Source: a virus. From it: a stretch of DNA of 46,126 nucleotides. The stretch lies in the IMG/VR virus record IMGVR_UViG_3300035670_000375, positions 1 through 46,126 of that record; one strand, written 5' to 3'. Below the pieces are notes generated by a model, which did not search any database, was not told the origin of the DNA, and saw nothing but the letters and a program-made list of their open reading frames with translations. This document shows, piece after piece, positions 1 to 26,105 of the stretch; position 1 is the stretch's first letter; the number at the start of each line of letters is the position of its first letter. The translations under genes and the position numbers were made by a program.

Positions 1-531
1 TCTATTGAGATGTGGTTGAAATACTTTGGTGAAGGCACTCAAGTTGTTGGCCTTGACATCAATCAAGAATGTTTGAAGTATGAATACAATGGTGATGTCA
101 AGATTGTGATGGGTGATCAAGGCGATCCTGCATTCTGGGATGAATTTCTCAAAACACAAAACAAATTTGATATTGTAATTGATGATGGCTCGCATGTAAT
201 GAATCATCAAATCACAACACTCAATAAAGTGTTTCCACATATCAAAGAAGGCGGTGTTTATATTTGTGAAGACACTCATACAAGTTATTGGCCACAGCCA
301 TGGGGTGGCGTGTTCCGTGGTGCTGGTACATTCTTAGAGCATACGAAACGTGCTACTGATATTTTGAATCAACAACACTTTCAGGGCACACCAATTTCTG
401 ACGAAGCATTGGCTGCGTATGATAATCTTTATTCAGTCGCATTCTATAACTCAATGGTCGTGATGGAAAAAGAAGAACTTAAATACTTTGGCATCACAGA
501 CAACAAAGCAAACGTAGGACGTGACCTATGA
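1..531 (+). CDS. Class I SAM-dependent O-methyltransferase, 5'-truncated by window edge
   Basis: The reading frame is open from the first base, so the true start lies upstream and the glycine-rich SAM motif I is probably missing. What remains shows the acidic post-motif I strand (VGLDINQE), the IVIDDGSH segment and GGVYICEDTHTSYW. These are typical of the CmcI/macrocin O-methyltransferase group, which methylates hydroxyls on sugars or antibiotics. It overlaps the next gene by 4 bases (ATGA) and sits in a run of glycan-type genes, so a sugar or cyclitol O-methyl transfer is the likely job. The substrate is unknown. Confidence 0.75.
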   Translation, partial: SIEMWLKYFGEGTQVVGLDINQECLKYEYNGDVKIVMGDQGDPAFWDEFLKTQNKFDIVIDDGSHVMNHQITTLNKVFPHIKEGGVYICEDTHTSYWPQPWGGVFRGAGTFLEHTKRATDILNQQHFQGTPISDEALAAYDNLYSVAFYNSMVVMEKEELKYFGITDNKANVGRDL

Positions 532-1241
532 AAATAGCATTATGCATTTCTGGTCAACCACGTATGTGGGAAAAGGGATATGAGTATCACTACGAAAATA
601 TTATCCGAGACAATGATGTAACTGTATTTTTACATTCGTGGGAAATGCCAGCGCAACAAATGCAAGCAATTTCTGCAAAGTATAATGCACACAGTTTCAT
701 TACATCACCAAATCCTACAGTTGATTTATCAAAGTATACAAACACACCACCACCATCACCAAACTGGAAAGTCAAAGATGGTCGCATGTCAACATATGCT
801 CAATTGCTTGCTATCAATGAATGTATGCGAACAAAACGTGAGTATGAAGAATACCACAACATGAAGTTTGATTGGGTTGTTAGGTCAAGATTTGATTTTG
901 CAATCAATGTTCGTATACCGTTTGAAGAACTTGACAACAGTAAGTTACATATTCCGAATTGTCGTATGACACCAAGTCGTGATTTTGGTAATGATCAATT
1001 TGCATTCTCTTCCTCTGAAAATATGAATAAGTATGCCGAAGCATATAATAATATTGACAATTTCTACAATTCTGGTGTACAATATATGATGGAAGATTTT
1101 ATGAGTGCTAATTGGATATTGCATGGACTAACTGGTGAGAATCTGGTTTATTGTGATATCAATCATCCATTTCCACCTGGTGAATATAACGGAACATGGC
1201 ACTCCTTGTTGAGAGAGGATATGAAAGAATGGCTGAAATAA
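528..1241 (+). CDS. Glycosyltransferase-like protein
   Basis: A 237-residue cytoplasmic protein with no signal peptide. The N-terminus MKIALCISGQPR is a Rossmann-like beta strand and turn seen in polysaccharide-cluster glycosyltransferase-like families. In the middle, WVVRSRFDF gives an RxRxD-type motif, followed by a conserved NDQFAFSSSENM segment that resembles acceptor or donor loops of capsule-type transferases. It is translationally coupled on both sides. I infer transfer of a sugar or cyclitol unit to a glycan; neither donor nor acceptor can be read from sequence. It could instead be a non-catalytic relative. Confidence 0.55.
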   Translation: MKIALCISGQPRMWEKGYEYHYENIIRDNDVTVFLHSWEMPAQQMQAISAKYNAHSFITSPNPTVDLSKYTNTPPPSPNWKVKDGRMSTYAQLLAINECMRTKREYEEYHNMKFDWVVRSRFDFAINVRIPFEELDNSKLHIPNCRMTPSRDFGNDQFAFSSSENMNKYAEAYNNIDNFYNSGVQYMMEDFMSANWILHGLTGENLVYCDINHPFPPGEYNGTWHSLLREDMKEWLK

Positions 1242-1960
1242 ATCTTGTTATCTGTATGGCGGGTTATAACACCCGCTTCCATGATGTTGGCTTTGATATT
1301 CCAAAATATTTGTTGCCCTGGAATGGCACAACAATCATTCATGAAATTCTAAAGAACTTAGGACCAACACGGCAAACTGTCCTCGTAGCAAATAACAGAG
1401 ACAGATATTTCAGCAATCAACTAATTGAGTCTATTGAACCTTTAGGTTTGAATGGTGAAAACGTCCTTTATATTGGCGACACAAAAGGTCAAGCGCATAC
1501 AGCAGCAATAGGCATGACACAAATTGAACACATGATGTTGCCTACGTTTGTTCACAATGCAGATACGATTCTTACTGGTCGTAAATTTGAGGAAATCGTC
1601 AAACAGATGGACGATTGGTATGATGTCTATGTTGATGTATTCGTAGGTAACTCACCAAAATATTCTTATGTTCGTGCTTATGAAGGAATAGTTACTGAGA
1701 TTGTAGAGAAGAAACAAATATCTCCGTATGCATCATCGGGTCTTTATGGTTTCACCTCTGCATCTTTATATTTGAATGAATATAATTCTGTTGTTCAGGA
1801 AAGAGATGAGTTATATATTTCAGACGTTATCCAGAGTATGTTGAAGAATGACATGCGAGGTTGCATGAATGGTCTTGGCAATTATCAAGAAACCATCGTG
1901 TTAGGTAGTCCACAAGAATATGGAATTGAAATAGCTAGACAGAAACTAGGTTCTAGATGA
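1229..1960 (+). CDS. Sugar-phosphate nucleotidyltransferase
   Basis: A 243-residue NTP-transferase-fold protein that activates a sugar-1-phosphate-like substrate to an NDP-sugar. The N-terminus LVICMAGYNTRF is the G-x-x-x-R-F nucleotide-binding loop, followed by DIPKYLLPWNGTTIIHEIL (the usual PKxLLP...I segment). VHNADTIL corresponds to the N/DxD metal-binding motif. The start chosen is the internal ATG behind GAGAGAGG, overlapping the previous gene by 13 bases; a longer frame would add 11 unrelated residues. Neighbours include a kinase-like and a cyclase-like gene, suggesting it activates the product of that kinase. The specific NTP and sugar are unknown. Confidence 0.75.
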   Translation: MAEINLVICMAGYNTRFHDVGFDIPKYLLPWNGTTIIHEILKNLGPTRQTVLVANNRDRYFSNQLIESIEPLGLNGENVLYIGDTKGQAHTAAIGMTQIEHMMLPTFVHNADTILTGRKFEEIVKQMDDWYDVYVDVFVGNSPKYSYVRAYEGIVTEIVEKKQISPYASSGLYGFTSASLYLNEYNSVVQERDELYISDVIQSMLKNDMRGCMNGLGNYQETIVLGSPQEYGIEIARQKLGSR

Positions 1961-2913
1961 GATCAATTAAGTTAAAGGGTGGCTCTCTCAGTTCAACTTA
2001 TTATCACGGCATAATAGGTGAAGAGTTTGTGCGTAAAAGCGTCAATCGTGATGTTAATCGTGAGTATGGTTATGTTCGTTGGTATTCACAATTGAAAAAA
2101 CTACAAAGATACAATACGCAATACCCGAATCTTTTTCCAAAAGTTCTTCGTGCGGGAATTGATGCATACACACCTTATTTTGATCTTGAATATCTTGAAG
2201 GATTTGAAGACATCAAAACAATTCTTGCAACAAAGAAACTTACTGAATATGAGATTGCAAATGTCAGTGAAGCTGTATGGAAAGGTCTTCATCAACTACA
2301 CAGTATCAAGCACAAATCTACAATTTACACAGGTAAACTTTACTTTGTAGAAGAGATTGAACAAAAGATAAACGATGCGTTAAAGCACAAAGAGTTTGAA
2401 GAGTTCTATGATATGGGAACTCATGCATACTTTGGCGGTATCGTGCATGGTCTGAGTAATTACATGAACGAACTAGAAAACTTTTTTAATGAAGTTGAAA
2501 TCATTGAAGAAGAAAACATTCACGGTAATCCTACACTTGAAAACATCATGTATTCGTTTGATGAGAATCGTGTAGTCTTTATTGATCCGTATGAAGAAAG
2601 TATTATAGACACGAAATATCTAGACTATGCACAAGTTCTACAATGTTCACGCAGCCACTATGGTCATATCAACGATAATGATGTAGTTATTGAAGGCGGT
2701 GGTGTGAGCCATTGTATTGCTATACCTAAAAACTTTCATACATTTAATCAACACTTTGAATCAAAACTTGACAATAATAAAATGTTGATTGATGTGTTAG
2801 AAGCAACTCAATTTATCCGTATGCTTCCGTTCAAGTGTTTGGCAGGCGACATAGATAAAGCAAAGTATTTTTATGTACATGCATGTTATTTGTTGAGTAA
2901 GGTGTTTAAATGA
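1957..2913 (+). CDS. APH/choline-kinase-fold small-molecule kinase
   Basis: A 318-residue protein of the aminoglycoside phosphotransferase/choline kinase fold. The catalytic loop reads IHGNPTLENIMY, the HGxPxxxN Brenner-type motif with Asn where many family members have Asp. VVFIDPYEES follows as the metal-binding IDP motif. The upstream region (residues about 60-120) carries the hinge-like FDLEYLEGF typical of this family. Related proteins phosphorylate sugars, cyclitols, choline or antibiotics. Position between a nucleotidyltransferase and a sugar-phosphate cyclase suggests it makes the phosphorylated intermediate for activation. The HGN instead of HGD is worth noting, because the Asp is usually the catalytic base. 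Confidence 0.65.
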   Translation: MRSIKLKGGSLSSTYYHGIIGEEFVRKSVNRDVNREYGYVRWYSQLKKLQRYNTQYPNLFPKVLRAGIDAYTPYFDLEYLEGFEDIKTILATKKLTEYEIANVSEAVWKGLHQLHSIKHKSTIYTGKLYFVEEIEQKINDALKHKEFEEFYDMGTHAYFGGIVHGLSNYMNELENFFNEVEIIEEENIHGNPTLENIMYSFDENRVVFIDPYEESIIDTKYLDYAQVLQCSRSHYGHINDNDVVIEGGGVSHCIAIPKNFHTFNQHFESKLDNNKMLIDVLEATQFIRMLPFKCLAGDIDKAKYFYVHACYLLSKVFK

Positions 2914-4046
2914 GTTTAGATTTTATGATGGACTATGATAAGTTCAAAAGAACTTGGTCAGTTAAGACAGAATTACCAGTAGAATTCAAGCTGACATATT
3001 CGGCTGATATATTCAATCCACAAAATAAAGATGTAGTCAATCTATCAAATAGCAATCGTAGAATTATTGTAATTGATAAAGAAGTATTTAATCTTTATCA
3101 TGATAAAATCAGCACATATTTTACTGATAATAAACTAGACCTCCATGTAATTTTTGTTGACTGTAAAGAAGAAAACAAAACTTGGGAAAATCTAAATCAT
3201 ATTTTACAACAATTTGAAGACATAGGAGTATTGCGCCGTGAAGAAATCATCGCAGTCGGTGGTGGTGTTTTGCTTGACATTGTTGGTTTTGCTTGCAGTA
3301 TTTACCGCCGTGGAATTCCATATATCAAAATCCCCACAACACTTTTGGCGATTGTTGACGCTTCAGTGGGTTCAAAAGTAGCAGTCAATCATTTCGGTCG
3401 TCGTAACAGAATCGGTGCATATTATCCACCAGTCGCAACATACATTGATAAGAAGTTTATCAAGACACAGAGTGAACGTGAAATTGTGAATGGTATTGCT
3501 GAGATATTCAAACTAGCAGTCATCAAAAGTCCTGAGTTGTTTCATCTATTAGAAGAAAATGCAGAGATACTTATTGAAGAAAAGTTTCAGTACGGTGCAG
3601 TACCAGTTCGTGTAATCAATCTAGCAATTACAGAAATGATTGCAGAACTTGGTCCAAATCTATGGGAAAAACGATTAGATCGTTGCGTTGATTTTGGGCA
3701 CACGTTTAGTCCTGTAATTGAAATGAATCACATGGACGAACTATTGCATGGTGAAGCAGTAGCATTAGATTGTTTGTATAGTACATGTATAGCATATAAT
3801 CGTGAGTATATTTCAGAAGACACCATCAGAAGAATTTTTGATGTCGCAAAGCGATTGAAACTAAAAACATTTCATCCTGGTTTCACAAACATGAAGTTGT
3901 TGACAGAAAGTTTGCGTGATGCAACAAAGCATCGTAATGGTAATCAGTATGCTCCACTTCCTATTGGTATTGGCAACTACAAAATTGTAAATGATATTAC
4001 TGAAGAAGAAATGAAAATGGCAATTGATATGTTTGAGGAGGTGTGA
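2910..4046 (+). CDS. Sugar-phosphate cyclase, EEVS-like (DHQ synthase superfamily)
   Basis: A 378-residue member of the 3-dehydroquinate synthase superfamily. NAD-binding GGGVLLDIVGFACSIYRRG, the PTTLLAIVDASVGSK loop and RRNRIGAYYPP are all present. AEIFKLAVIKSPELF and the zinc-site segment DFGHTFSPVIE...HGEAV follow. Genuine DHQ synthases read GHTFGHAIE at the last position; GHTFSPxxE is what I know from sedoheptulose 7-phosphate cyclases such as 2-epi-5-epi-valiolone synthase. I therefore prefer a C7-cyclitol synthase acting on sedoheptulose 7-phosphate, an inference from motifs. Alternatives are an unusual DHQ synthase or a deoxy-inosose synthase. It overlaps the kinase gene by 4 bases. 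Confidence 0.75.
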   Translation: MSLDFMMDYDKFKRTWSVKTELPVEFKLTYSADIFNPQNKDVVNLSNSNRRIIVIDKEVFNLYHDKISTYFTDNKLDLHVIFVDCKEENKTWENLNHILQQFEDIGVLRREEIIAVGGGVLLDIVGFACSIYRRGIPYIKIPTTLLAIVDASVGSKVAVNHFGRRNRIGAYYPPVATYIDKKFIKTQSEREIVNGIAEIFKLAVIKSPELFHLLEENAEILIEEKFQYGAVPVRVINLAITEMIAELGPNLWEKRLDRCVDFGHTFSPVIEMNHMDELLHGEAVALDCLYSTCIAYNREYISEDTIRRIFDVAKRLKLKTFHPGFTNMKLLTESLRDATKHRNGNQYAPLPIGIGNYKIVNDITEEEMKMAIDMFEEV

Positions 4047-4720
4047 TGCGTAAAGTTGCTGTTGTTACTGGTTGCAGCTATGGTCTAGGTCATGAAATAT
4101 CCAATAGATTAATTGACGAAGGATATTTTGTTTACGGTATTTCACGAACAGAACCACCAATGGACTTGTCATCATATCCCGATACGTTTGAATGGATAGA
4201 ATGTGATATATCAAATGCAACAGACGTTGAGATTGCGTTTAGAGATATCGGCACGTATATTGATGTTCTTGTAAATAATGCTGGTGTGTATGAATGGAAT
4301 ATCTTTCATAAAGATGCAACGTCCTCAATGATTGATAGAATTATTGATACGAATGTCAAAGGTACAATGTATGTAACACTACAAGCATTGAAACTAATGA
4401 AAGAAAAATCTGACATTTTCTTTATCAATTCCGTTGCGGGTCTTTCAGAAATTCAATATGAAGCTGTTTATGCTGCATCTAAACATGCACTCACGGCATT
4501 TGCTGGTATTTTAGGTCAAGAACTTAATAATCAACTTGAGAAGATTAGAGTTACAAGTATTCATCCTGGCGGTATGAATACACATATGCAAAAAGATCAT
4601 CCATATAAAGATAAGTTTATGGACCCAAAAGAAGTCGTTGATATGATGATGCATGTTCTGAAATCTAAATCAAGATATAAAACAATCAAAATGTTCCCGG
4701 AGTTTGAATGGCACGAATAA
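4046..4720 (+). CDS. Short-chain dehydrogenase/reductase (SDR)
   Basis: A 224-residue classical SDR. The cofactor loop TGCSYGLG sits at the N-terminus, DVLVNNAG around residue 75, the catalytic Ser in FFINSVAGLS and the YAASK catalytic Tyr/Lys pair downstream. IHPGGMNT follows the active site as usual. The ATG overlaps the stop of the cyclase gene (TGATG), so translation is coupled; a GTG one codon earlier is less likely. In C7-cyclitol pathways an SDR reduces a keto-cyclitol, which fits the neighbour. NAD(P) preference and substrate cannot be fixed from sequence. Confidence 0.85.
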   Translation: MRKVAVVTGCSYGLGHEISNRLIDEGYFVYGISRTEPPMDLSSYPDTFEWIECDISNATDVEIAFRDIGTYIDVLVNNAGVYEWNIFHKDATSSMIDRIIDTNVKGTMYVTLQALKLMKEKSDIFFINSVAGLSEIQYEAVYAASKHALTAFAGILGQELNNQLEKIRVTSIHPGGMNTHMQKDHPYKDKFMDPKEVVDMMMHVLKSKSRYKTIKMFPEFEWHE

Positions 4721-5418
4721 TACCAGATACGCCACTTTTTATTGTAACATCTGCGCTGAATCCTAATATGGGTGTCATCAATCGTGATGACAGGCTGCAA
4801 CAAACAATTGAGGGTCTGAAGTCTCTCCGTGAGAAGTGTCCTGATGCGATTGTTTTACTTGCGGATGGATCACCAGAAAAAGTTGAAGAAGATAAAATCA
4901 AAGCATTGGATGGACTAGTTCATCTTGTAGCAGATTTTTCTGGTGATAATGATATAACACAGTTTGCAGCAACAGGACGAAAGAGTGAAGCAGAGAATGT
5001 TCTCATGCTCAAAACTCTTTTGCTGCTGAAGCAAGATCCGGGTATGATGCGTTTGTTGCAAACAGTGAACAGAGTCTTCAAGCTATCAGCTAGAACAACA
5101 ATTGACGATAGTTTTGATATCTCAGAACACAATCACTTCGGCAAGTATGTTTTCAAGAAACGTATGCCTACTTGGATACAAGGTGAACGAGCAGAAGTTT
5201 TTACCGACTTGTTAATAACTCGGCTGTTTTCTTTCTGTCCAAGTTTGTTAGATGACTATTTCATTATGTGCAAACGTAATATCAATGTCATTATGGAGAC
5301 TGGAGTTGACACCGAACATGCACATTTCTTCAATATGAGTCAGGAAAATCTCATAGAACTAAATATAATTCACTGTCGTGGAATTATGGCTGGTACCGGT
5401 ACGCTTGAAATCTACTAA
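4708..5418 (+). CDS. Possible glycosyltransferase-like protein, last gene of the sugar cassette
   Basis: A 236-residue soluble protein that overlaps the SDR gene by 13 bases. The first half (RDDRLQQTIEGLKSLREKCPDAIVLLADGS) looks like the nucleotide-binding half of a GT-A fold. The middle segment FKLSARTTIDDSFDI and the later IMETGVDTEHAHFF resemble acceptor-side motifs of capsular sugar transferases. I do not recognise the family with certainty. Context (methyltransferase, nucleotidyltransferase, kinase, cyclase, SDR) favours a transferase that uses the activated product. The stop codon overlaps a tandem late-promoter-like motif. Confidence 0.4.
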   Translation: MARIIPDTPLFIVTSALNPNMGVINRDDRLQQTIEGLKSLREKCPDAIVLLADGSPEKVEEDKIKALDGLVHLVADFSGDNDITQFAATGRKSEAENVLMLKTLLLLKQDPGMMRLLQTVNRVFKLSARTTIDDSFDISEHNHFGKYVFKKRMPTWIQGERAEVFTDLLITRLFSFCPSLLDDYFIMCKRNINVIMETGVDTEHAHFFNMSQENLIELNIIHCRGIMAGTGTLEIY

Positions 5419-5428
5419 ATACTAAATA
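5414..5428 (+). promoter_or_regulatory. Tandem late-promoter-like octamers (ACTAAATA x2)
   Basis: Two copies of ACTAAATA share one base. They resemble the T4 late-promoter octamer TATAAATA and its relaxed forms in marine T4-like phages. The motif lies 36-50 bases before the first virion-protein gene, a sensible late-promoter position. AT-rich sequence makes chance matches possible. Confidence 0.45.
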
Positions 5429-5463
5429 GATTTATTGTAAATCAACTGCTGTAGAGGCGGAGA

Positions 5464-8103
5464 ATGAAATTTAGAGATTTTTTGCGTGAGCAAAAAGAAA
5501 AAAGTGCTGTTTTAGCTTTCGGGCGTATGAATCCGATCACAAACGGCCATGAAAAACTAGTCAATAAAGTCAAAAAAGTTGCCAAAGAAGCTGGCGCATC
5601 ACATCACATTGTCCTGTCACATTCACAGGATCCAAAGAAGAATCCTCTCTCAGCAGCACAAAAATTAAAACATGCCAAGAATGCGTTTCCTGGCACCAAT
5701 TTCGTAGCAGCATCCAAAAACTCACCCACATTTTTTGACCATGCAGAGAAGTTACACAAACAGGGTGTAACAGATTTTCACATGGTAGGTGGTTCAGATC
5801 GCACTGGTGAATTTGCTAGGCTGTTGAGAAAATATAACGGTACACACGAGGGTGCCCGTTTCAATTTCAAAACAATTACTGTACACACTGCTGGTGAACG
5901 TGATCCAGATGCAGAAGGTGTTGCAGGAATTTCTGCAAGCAAAATGCGTGAAGCAGCAAAAAATGGAGACTTTGATACTTTTAGGAAAGGTGCTCCGTCA
6001 AAAATGTCACAAGCACATGTCAAACAAATGTTCAATGATGTACGCAAAGGTATGAATCTTAAAGAAGAAGTAATAACTGAAGGCGTTCACGATAAAGGTA
6101 TCTTCAAGGCTGTTTTCTTAGGTGGTGGACCAGGCTCAGGCAAAGATTATGTTCTGAGTAATACACTAGATGGTCATGGTCTAACAGAAATCAATTCAGA
6201 TAAAGCATTAGAGTATCTGATGGACAAAGAAGACCTTGATATGAAAATGCCTGAGAATGAAGAAGAGCAACGTAATGCAGTTCGTAAACGTGCAAAAAAC
6301 ATTACAGAACTCCGTCAGCGTCTTGCACTTCATGGTCGTAATGGATTGATTATCAATGGCACTGGTGATGATCCAGAAAAATATAAAAAGATCAAAGAAA
6401 AACTAGAAGCTTTAGGTTACGAAACAAAGATGGTGATGGTCAACACAGCAGATGAAGTTTCTCGTCAACGAAACGTTGAGCGTGGACAGCGTGGTGGTCG
6501 TACTGTTCCTGAAGATATTCGTAAAGAAAAATGGGATGCAGTTCAAGCATCACGTGTTGAACACGCAAAAATATTTGGCGATAACTACGTTGAGTTTGAT
6601 AATTCAGAAGATTTGCGTTCAGCACCACCTGAAGTTGTTGATGCGAAAAATAAAGAAATGCAGGGCATCTTCAAAGATATACAAAAGTTTGTTGGTGCTG
6701 CACCTAAGAATGATCAGTCAAAACAATGGATTGCAAATGAATTAGGTAAAAAAGATACAGCACCAGTTGTAAAAGATGCACGACCACATGCAGATGCTGG
6801 ACATCAAGAAGAAGGAAACAAGCTAGGACTTGAATACTACGGATTTGGACGTTATGGTAAAGATGGTAAAGTAACACACCGCTCAGTTCATGGTAAGCTT
6901 GTAGAAATTCAACCAAAACAAAAAGAAACACCCGATTTACCTGTCATGGGCTCTGGTTCTGCAAGCACTAAAGAATTTCAATTGAGGGGCAAACAAAAAG
7001 AAAAACTAAAAGACATTCAGTCTAAGTCTAAACTTCCTAAAACGAAAAACGAAAGTATTAACGACAAGTTTGAAAACTTTTTATCTGAAGCAGTAACAGT
7101 CACAATTACTGGTGATACAGCAGAAGAAGTTTCTAAAACGTTCCGTCTCCTTCGTACAGATGATGAAGAGATGACTGAGCAAGAAGAAGTAAACACAATG
7201 TCGGATCCGGGTGCATACAATCTCCTTCGTTTAGGTATGCCACTTATCAAAGAAGATTTGCGTAACTGGTTTGATCCTAAACATCCAGAAGGTGGTTGGA
7301 AACGTATCAATAGCAAAGGTGAAGCAATTGGTCCTTGTGCAAGAGAACCTGGTGAAGCAAAGCCAAAATGCATGAGCAATGAGAAACGTGCATCACTGAG
7401 TAAAAAAGAAAGAGCGTCTGCTGTTGCTGCTAAACGCAAGCATGATCCAAATCCAGAACGTAAAGGTGAACCAATCAACGTATCAAGTTTTGGTAAGGGC
7501 AAGATAAGTGAAGAAACAGAAAAGAAACAAAAGCTATTAGCAGATAAAAATGGCAAGCCAAGAACATTCTTGCTCAGAGCATCAGCAGCAAAAGAAGCAC
7601 ATACAAAAAATGGTACAGTTCACAAAGTAGGAAGTAAGTACGTTGTCAAAATAAAAGAGGATAAAGATGAAGTTTATTCACCAACTCATAATGCAATTGA
7701 AGCAGCTTATGGACAGAATAGTTCCACGCCGTCAGCAAAACAACTTGGAAAAGTCAGAACCGATTCAGGAAGAACAGAAAAACCAAGACTTGACAAACCA
7801 GTTGCCGAAGAACGAAGAACAATCAGTCTCTCGTCCATCAAAGAGAACTTCCAAAAGAAAATCCAAGAATCAATTGACAAAGGAATAGAGCCTGGTATTT
7901 CTATGGCAGCAGCTGGTGAATCTCCTGCCCGTGATATGGGTGAAAAGCTAAGTAAAAAAGGTAAAGCAACACAAGTTGTTCCAAAGAATATTAGTGAACT
8001 CACTGGCGATGAAACAACAGCAAGCATTGGTGATCAGAAAGAAGATGAGTTGAAGAAAAAAGGCATCTCAATTACAACATTCAAAAAGAGAAACTACATA
8101 TGA
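5464..8103 (+). CDS. Virion-associated multidomain protein: nucleotidylyltransferase + P-loop kinase + acidic-motif tail
   Basis: An 879-residue fusion. Residues 14-165 form a cytidylyl/adenylyltransferase-like domain: FGRMNPITNGHEKL carries the T/HxGH loop and GISASKMR the ISSTxxR-like signature. Residues about 215-400 form a P-loop kinase of the zeta-toxin/AAA_33 type (FLGGGPGSGKDYV at 218-230, then an Arg-rich lid near RNVERGQRGG). Residues about 598-680 hold a basic Cys-containing segment (GWKRINSKGEAIGPCAREPG) shared with phage structural proteins. The rest is Lys/Glu-rich and probably disordered, with several EEV motifs. RBS GAGGCGGAG. Cargo or salvage role is unproven. Confidence 0.7.
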   Translation: MKFRDFLREQKEKSAVLAFGRMNPITNGHEKLVNKVKKVAKEAGASHHIVLSHSQDPKKNPLSAAQKLKHAKNAFPGTNFVAASKNSPTFFDHAEKLHKQGVTDFHMVGGSDRTGEFARLLRKYNGTHEGARFNFKTITVHTAGERDPDAEGVAGISASKMREAAKNGDFDTFRKGAPSKMSQAHVKQMFNDVRKGMNLKEEVITEGVHDKGIFKAVFLGGGPGSGKDYVLSNTLDGHGLTEINSDKALEYLMDKEDLDMKMPENEEEQRNAVRKRAKNITELRQRLALHGRNGLIINGTGDDPEKYKKIKEKLEALGYETKMVMVNTADEVSRQRNVERGQRGGRTVPEDIRKEKWDAVQASRVEHAKIFGDNYVEFDNSEDLRSAPPEVVDAKNKEMQGIFKDIQKFVGAAPKNDQSKQWIANELGKKDTAPVVKDARPHADAGHQEEGNKLGLEYYGFGRYGKDGKVTHRSVHGKLVEIQPKQKETPDLPVMGSGSASTKEFQLRGKQKEKLKDIQSKSKLPKTKNESINDKFENFLSEAVTVTITGDTAEEVSKTFRLLRTDDEEMTEQEEVNTMSDPGAYNLLRLGMPLIKEDLRNWFDPKHPEGGWKRINSKGEAIGPCAREPGEAKPKCMSNEKRASLSKKERASAVAAKRKHDPNPERKGEPINVSSFGKGKISEETEKKQKLLADKNGKPRTFLLRASAAKEAHTKNGTVHKVGSKYVVKIKEDKDEVYSPTHNAIEAAYGQNSSTPSAKQLGKVRTDSGRTEKPRLDKPVAEERRTISLSSIKENFQKKIQESIDKGIEPGISMAAAGESPARDMGEKLSKKGKATQVVPKNISELTGDETTASIGDQKEDELKKKGISITTFKKRNYI

Positions 8104-25034: not shown

Positions 25035-25128
25035 TCAACAAACTTGTGAACACGCAAAATCGTCAATGACATATTGGTTGAAGTTTAAAAATTTTAAAGT
25101 GGAATCAACATGTACAAAAAAATATTGA
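24955..25128 (+). CDS. 57-residue protein overlapping plcP and agt ends
   Basis: A short frame with AGGAG 7 bases before its ATG, a better site than that of the next gene. The N-terminus is hydrophobic (MWLMILIAVHLNDPND), followed by a compact polar part with two Cys. It overlaps the plcP-like gene by 80 bases and the agt-like gene by 19. It resembles other small membrane-targeted phage proteins in form but I recognise no family. It could be a bridging gene that couples translation of the two enzymes. Confidence 0.5.
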   Translation: MWLMILIAVHLNDPNDIPGKVTLEFPDQQTCEHAKSSMTYWLKFKNFKVESTCTKKY

Positions 25129-26105
25129 TCATCACAGACAATCTTCAGGACCAAATAAATGGCGTTGTCACAACTTTCAAAAATCTGGAGAAACACGCAG
25201 TTCTGGATGATTATAGGATCATATACCTTGATCCCGGGCAGTTCGTACATTTTAGTTGCCCTGGCTACCCTGAAGTTAAACTTAGCATTCCTTGGCTCAT
25301 GGGCAAAAAAATTAAGGAGATATCTCCGGATTATATACACATCGCCACAGAGGGTCCTATTGGTCTTGCTGCTAGACTTTGGCTTGACATGCGCGGCTGG
25401 CGGTATAACACTTCTTACCATACTAAATTTCCTGAATTTATAAAAGAAATTTATCACATACCTAAAGTTTTTACTTGGTCTTATCTACGTTGGTTTCACA
25501 AGCACTCTGGTAGAGTTCTGGTAACTACAGAAACCATAAAAAATTCATTGATTGAAAGAAAATTTAAAAGCGATATAATAACGTGGACAAGAGGCGTTGA
25601 CAGAGAAGCATTAGAAGCAAATCAAACATTTGAACGTAAAAATCCACCTACTGTATTGTACGTCGGAAGAATTTCAAAAGAAAAAAATCTAGATGATCTT
25701 TGCGTACTGCAAGACAAATACAATATTGAGATAGTTGGTGACGGACCATACAGACAGCATTTAGAATCCAAATATACAAAAGTATCTTTTCTCGGATATC
25801 AGCAAGGAACCGAACTGGCAAACAGTTATGCACGTGCTGATGTTTTTTGTTTTCCTAGTAAGAATGATACATTTGGCATTGTCATCATTGAAGCCATGAG
25901 TTTAGGTACACCAGTGGCAGCATATCCAATAGATGGTCCCATTGATATTATTGAACCAGACACTGGCCATATGAGTAATGATCTAGACAAAAGCATCCAA
26001 GAATGTATGAAATTGAATAGAGAAACAGTACGTGAGAAGTCTAAGAAATGGACATGGAAAGAGTGCTGGAAAATCTTTAAATGTAATCTAATTGAAATAA
26101 TCTAA
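25110..26105 (+). CDS. agt: Agt-like glycosyltransferase family 4 (diacylglycerol glycosyltransferase candidate)
   Basis: A 331-residue GT-B enzyme. The N-terminal acceptor half has NGVVTTFKNLE, and HIATEGPIGLAARLW followed by TSYHTKFPEF is a signature I associate with Agt/GtrB-type lipid glucosyltransferases. The C-terminal donor half shows VLYVGRISKEKN, VGDGPYRQHLE and the E-x7-E motif in FPSKNDTFGIVIIEAMSLG. In phosphate-starved marine bacteria Agt adds sugar to the diacylglycerol made by PlcP, giving glycolipids. Immediate linkage to a PlcP-like gene supports that role here. Sugar donor (UDP-Glc or UDP-GlcA) is unknown. Confidence 0.7.
   Translation: MYKKILIITDNLQDQINGVVTTFKNLEKHAVLDDYRIIYLDPGQFVHFSCPGYPEVKLSIPWLMGKKIKEISPDYIHIATEGPIGLAARLWLDMRGWRYNTSYHTKFPEFIKEIYHIPKVFTWSYLRWFHKHSGRVLVTTETIKNSLIERKFKSDIITWTRGVDREALEANQTFERKNPPTVLYVGRISKEKNLDDLCVLQDKYNIEIVGDGPYRQHLESKYTKVSFLGYQQGTELANSYARADVFCFPSKNDTFGIVIIEAMSLGTPVAAYPIDGPIDIIEPDTGHMSNDLDKSIQECMKLNRETVREKSKKWTWKECWKIFKCNLIEII

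Follow-up and report, generated by a model that had tools for sequence, protein, structure and literature searches.

A gene module of aquatic T4-like phages that appears to produce a nucleotide-activated carbasugar

The window analyzed in this study is a whole IMG/VR virus record of 46,126 bases (IMGVR_UViG_3300035670_000375), a fragment of a T4-like phage that carries a T4-like virion protein (58% to cyanophage S-RIM8), ribonucleotide reductase, primase, and PhoH. Its first 5.4 kb hold seven genes on the + strand, each overlapping the next, and a preliminary description of the sequence had listed the same seven genes. They encode, in order, a methyltransferase (MT, 1–531), a putative glycosyltransferase-like protein (GTa, 528–1241), a sugar-1-phosphate nucleotidyltransferase-like protein (NT, 1196–1960, with a likely start at 1229), an APH-fold kinase (APH, 1957–2913), a cyclase (SPC, 2910–4046), a short-chain dehydrogenase/reductase (SDR, 4043–4720), and a probable glycosyltransferase of GT-A fold by structure prediction (GTb, 4708–5418). 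A marine cyanophage host was not supported by psbA, which was absent from 15 carrier records, although gp23 is nearest to cyanophages at about 64%.

The MT gene is cut at its 5′ end by the start of the window, and only the C-terminal 176 aa are present, a point that the preliminary description had missed. A complete homologue of 230 aa is found at positions 4933–5625 of a related locus (L008), and most relatives have an eighth gene upstream, encoding a 280-aa protein that we call GTu. A phmmer search showed that the MT is nearest to the sugar O-methyltransferase MycE (3ssm, E=5e-21), followed by the demethylmacrocin O-MT 8ia9 (E=2e-13), with a weak Methyltransf_24 match. GTa was matched by DUF7796 at 27.2 bits, just over the cut-off of 27, and by phrog_13607 (E=5e-25). 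A distant homologue is annotated as capsular polysaccharide biosynthesis in cyanophage S-SM2, and another homologue lies beside the module in a Balneolaceae locus (L045). GTb gave no Pfam, NCBIfam, or PHROG hit and was placed as a GT-A fold only by structure prediction: the AlphaFold model (pLDDT 88.3) matched glycogenin and alpha-1,3-GalT in Foldseek with E about 1e-6, and VIA-align gave Z of 13–14 to GlcAT-S and GT6 enzymes. The family support of GTa and GTu is weak or absent.

The cyclase is not a dehydroquinate synthase (DHQS), although automatic annotation would give it that name, since Pfam PF01761 (E=5e-36) and DHQS_C match it and TIGR01357 scores 218 bits. The latter value is below the cut-off of 305 bits. 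The best PDB match was ValA (4p53), the EEVS of validamycin synthesis, with 286 bits and about 40% identity, followed by 5tpr with 218 bits, which is deposited as a DHQS but is probably the Anabaena DDGS, while the DHQS entries reached at most 136 bits and DOIS 99 bits. The sequence contains the motifs GHTFSPVIE and RRNRIGAYYPP; in DFGHTFSP, the residues that appear to correspond to Asn268 and His275 of the A. nidulans DHQS are Asp and Pro. The metal ligands of ValA (Glu213, His284, and His300) are conserved in all phage sequences tested. It was reported that two positions distinguish EEVS from DDGS (PMC4426668), which probably correspond to Asp281 and His360 of ValA. Asp and His were found at these positions in 18 of 18 phage sequences, in all 21 of a later set, and in 9 of 9 module bacteria, while the DDGS reference has Ala and Thr and the DHQS references have Asn and Ser/Val. 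In two trees, the DHQS references split off first (100/100), the DDGS reference fell outside the phage/module clade, and the phage proteins formed one clade (98/94) next to Prochlorococcus (94/91) and the other module-bearing cells. The protein is thus on the EEVS side of trees that included no EVS reference. Only these two sites, the metal ligands, and a few others were compared, not all 14 sites of the fingerprint. That the product is exactly EEV remains a residue-based prediction. No other shikimate-pathway gene is in the cassette, and a phage DHQS boosting aromatic synthesis is already contradicted and very improbable. The preliminary description had proposed that its C7-cyclitol reading would be refuted if the cyclase grouped inside true DHQS with all DHQS substrate residues, and this test failed to refute it.

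NT was matched by PF00483 (E=6e-12) and PDB 4evw (E=7e-14), and the SDR by PF00106 (E=7e-38), with TGxxxGxG and YAASK motifs in its translation. The kinase had no Pfam hit, and a phmmer search of the PDB gave nothing, but its AlphaFold model (pLDDT 92.9) matched APH(4)-Ia with Z 19.6 and rmsd 3.0 over 258 residues, as well as LicA, FN3K, and other kinases. Interestingly, its catalytic Asp is replaced by Asn (HGNPTLEN). HGNxTLEN is found in all the cyclase-linked homologues aligned, and N191 is invariant in 23 phage and bacterial homologues. It suggested that either another residue serves as the base or the activity is unusual, and kinase activity is therefore not certain.

In 80 viral loci, NT-APH-SPC-SDR is in order in all 71 where the four genes were found, and GTa to GTb are in order in all 60 with the six genes. 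APH lies within 39 bases of SPC and SDR within 21. In three loci (L187 to L189), the NT-like gene is 1.7–2.2 kb away and only 24% identical. The dN/dS values were mostly 0.04–0.2, indicating purifying selection. No close relative of the cyclase or kinase was found among 50,697 deposited phage records, where the cyclase hits were DHQS-like at 22.8–31.1% identity.

Homologous modules were also found in cells. Nine cellular loci carry the kinase beside the cyclase: six as APH-SPC-SDR-NT (Woesearchaeota, two Myxococcales, Polynucleobacter, Balneolaceae, and Fibrobacteria), two Prochlorococcus as NT-APH-SPC, and one Holophagaceae as APH-SPC. In one Prochlorococcus locus (L042), the next gene encodes an aldo/keto reductase, so the reduction step seems to be done there by an unrelated enzyme in place of the SDR. 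Where the flanks were annotated, the Polynucleobacter locus (L043) lies near Wzz and GT9 genes and the Woesearchaeota locus (L040) beside a Polysacc_synt flippase. The kinase family was found only in the seed genome itself in samples of 194 cyanobacterial-class genomes (at strong E-value, with four weak partial hits), 398 Pseudomonadota genomes, 247 Balneolaceae-phylum genomes, and 101 genomes each of the two genera. It is rare and patchy, as serotype-like surface genes are. The real unit is the NT-kinase-cyclase-reductase core, also found in cells.

A scan anchored on the nearby virion gene revealed sister phages (loci L191 to L193, L214, L222, and L209) that keep GTu, GTa, GTb, and the g8 and virion genes. 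Between GTa and GTb they carry, instead of our module, another APH-family kinase and a nucleotidyltransferase-like protein, followed in L191 by an NAD-dependent epimerase. The kinases of this alternative module keep HGD. Constant transferases with an exchanged kinase/NT set is what a swappable sugar-donor module predicts.

Taken together, the data support, with fair confidence although no enzyme was assayed, the idea that these genes form a self-contained module that makes a nucleotide-activated C7-cyclitol and passes it to transferases that build or cap a glycan. The preliminary description had proposed an NDP-cyclitol built from sedoheptulose 7-phosphate to decorate a virion, DNA, or host glycan, and its reading of the donor pathway is supported. 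In the inferred route, host sedoheptulose 7-phosphate is cyclised by the SPC to 2-epi-5-epi-valiolone or a close isomer, the SDR reduces the ring ketone to an alcohol, the APH-fold kinase phosphorylates the resulting "anomeric-like" hydroxyl to give a cyclitol 1-phosphate, and the NT couples it to an NTP. GTa, GTb, and the upstream GTu would then transfer it or neighboring sugars, and the MycE-like enzyme would O-methylate the product. No transaldolase was found in 12 records, so a phage supply of sedoheptulose 7-phosphate was not supported. The production of a free small molecule, such as a pseudo-sugar inhibitor or signal, could also be considered because ValA, the closest characterized cyclase, works in antibiotic synthesis. 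However, an NT and several transferase-like proteins are co-conserved, the cellular homologues with annotated flanks lie near surface-polysaccharide genes, the slot in sister phages holds another kinase/NT set, and the cassette has no aminotransferase, ROK kinase, or exporter; we regard this possibility as unlikely.

The acceptor is not determined by these data, and we judge a virion glycoprotein a little more likely than host LPS/O-chain, and DNA less likely. Mycobacteriophages glycosylate capsid and tail tube with their own enzymes (PMC12363180, citing Freeman 2023). No cassette protein shows a clear transmembrane segment, the one hydrophobic stretch lying in the conserved core of the cyclase, and there is no flippase, polymerase, or lipid-linked transferase in the cassette. 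This slightly favors the virion or another cytoplasmic acceptor, although host genes could supply these parts. A late-promoter motif of the TATAAATA type was not found close upstream of GTu in 57 of 60 loci, which gave no support for a virion role. The transfer of the glycan onto the O-chain or capsule of the infected host, to block superinfection or mimic the host, remains a tentative alternative, as cellular homologues lie near polysaccharide genes and the hypervariable islands of pelagimyophages, rich in glycosyltransferases, were interpreted in this way (PMC7029224). Glycosylation of phage DNA, as in T4 glucosylation of hydroxymethylcytosine, is improbable. The phage is T4-like, and some divergent carriers (genomes G1056 to G1058 and G1060) encode a thymidylate synthase-like protein, but no PF00303 (thymidylate synthase/hydroxymethylase) was found in the window or in the 133–172 kb contigs of the main carrier lineage, and the MT resembles sugar O-methyltransferases of the MycE type.

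C7-cyclitol pathways, known so far mainly from antibiotic-making bacteria, and phage glycan islands are each known, but we could not find their combination, or a four-enzyme NDP-cyclitol module in cellular surface-glycan contexts, in the literature searched, which did not cover key subscription papers on the cyclase family, so that a mention there cannot be excluded. It is somewhat more likely than not that phages, and rarely bacteria and archaea, build surface or virion glycans containing a C7 carbasugar by this minimal pathway. Such a residue would be a ring without a glycosidic oxygen and so resist glycosidases. C7-cyclitols such as the acarbose core inhibit glycosidases because they mimic sugars but cannot be hydrolysed like them, and a phage glycan with such units may not be cut by host or phage depolymerases. 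If so, the module would also offer a new route to carbasugar donors for chemistry, place a family scored automatically as DHQS among phage and microbial surface-glycan enzymes, and point to a kinase family that may work without the usual catalytic Asp.

The ValA/AcbC enzymes of the validamycin and acarbose pathways share with the phage cyclase the superfamily and branch, the metal ligands, and the two discriminating residues, but the phage enzyme sits in a phage or surface-glycan cassette instead of an antibiotic cluster. Acarbose synthesis uses AcbC, AcbM, AcbO, AcbL, and AcbN before activation (PMC7081202), and the phage cassette follows the same logic of cyclase, reductase, kinase, nucleotidyltransferase, and transferase. 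However, no 7-kinase (AcbM/ValC type), epimerase, or aminotransferase is present in the cassette, nor is a dehydration gene, so the product should be a simpler NDP-C7-cyclitol; the kinase is APH-fold, while ValC-type 7-kinases seem to belong to the ROK family. The islands of T4-like cyano- and pelagimyophages are likewise exchangeable and glycosyltransferase-rich among conserved phage genes, but rfaE and UDP-glucose dehydrogenase are the sugar-synthesis genes named there, the word "dehydroquinate" does not occur in that report, and no cyclitol pathway was seen in the parts examined (PMC7029224). The Ebo operon also contains an uncharacterised sugar phosphate cyclase, EboD, in a conserved multi-gene operon (PMC5133447), but it was rejected as the bacterial counterpart because its partners are a UbiA prenyltransferase, hydrolases, and an isomerase-like protein, without a kinase/NT/GT set. 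The mycobacteriophages that glycosylate their virions with soluble glycosyltransferases have no cyclitol module, but distant homologues of this MT occur in mycobacteriophages.

The kinases linked to the EEVS-type cyclase, including the one encoded at positions 1957-2913 of the window, in which the residue concerned is N191, all read HGNxTLEN. On the other hand, the homologous kinases of the alternative donor module, found in sister phages such as that of locus L191 (L191:2818-3561), read HGDLTLEN. There is thus a clean Asp/Asn split that follows the partner enzyme. In another sister phage, locus L194, the slot carries a fusion of a nucleotidyltransferase with a RpiB/LacAB isomerase domain (L194:5302-6459), plus a separate NAD-epimerase gene.

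The SDR encoded at L035:9128-9802, in locus L035, was found to be only 56% identical to that of the window (4043-4720), although the flanking cassette genes are mostly 89-95% identical. It suggests gene-level recombination inside the cassette. In the divergent carrier phage of locus L188, a gene located just after the SDR (L188:9841-11364) looks, by eye, like that of a NodU-type carbamoyltransferase, which possibly decorates the cyclitol further. Moreover, similar-looking proteins of 385-388 aa flank the module in Woesearchaeota (L040:11500-12657) and Fibrobacteria (L046:6786-7952), and we regard them as a candidate cyclitol transferase. The Woesearchaeota protein has no Pfam hit.

Next to the island, an 879-aa protein (window positions 5464-8103) that joins a CTP_transf_like domain and a zeta-toxin/AAA kinase-like domain is conserved, and its N-terminus, MKFxDFLxEQ, recurs in variants across relatives. 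A further glycosyltransferase-like gene (phrog_2170) lies away from the cassette, at positions 25110-26105 of the window.
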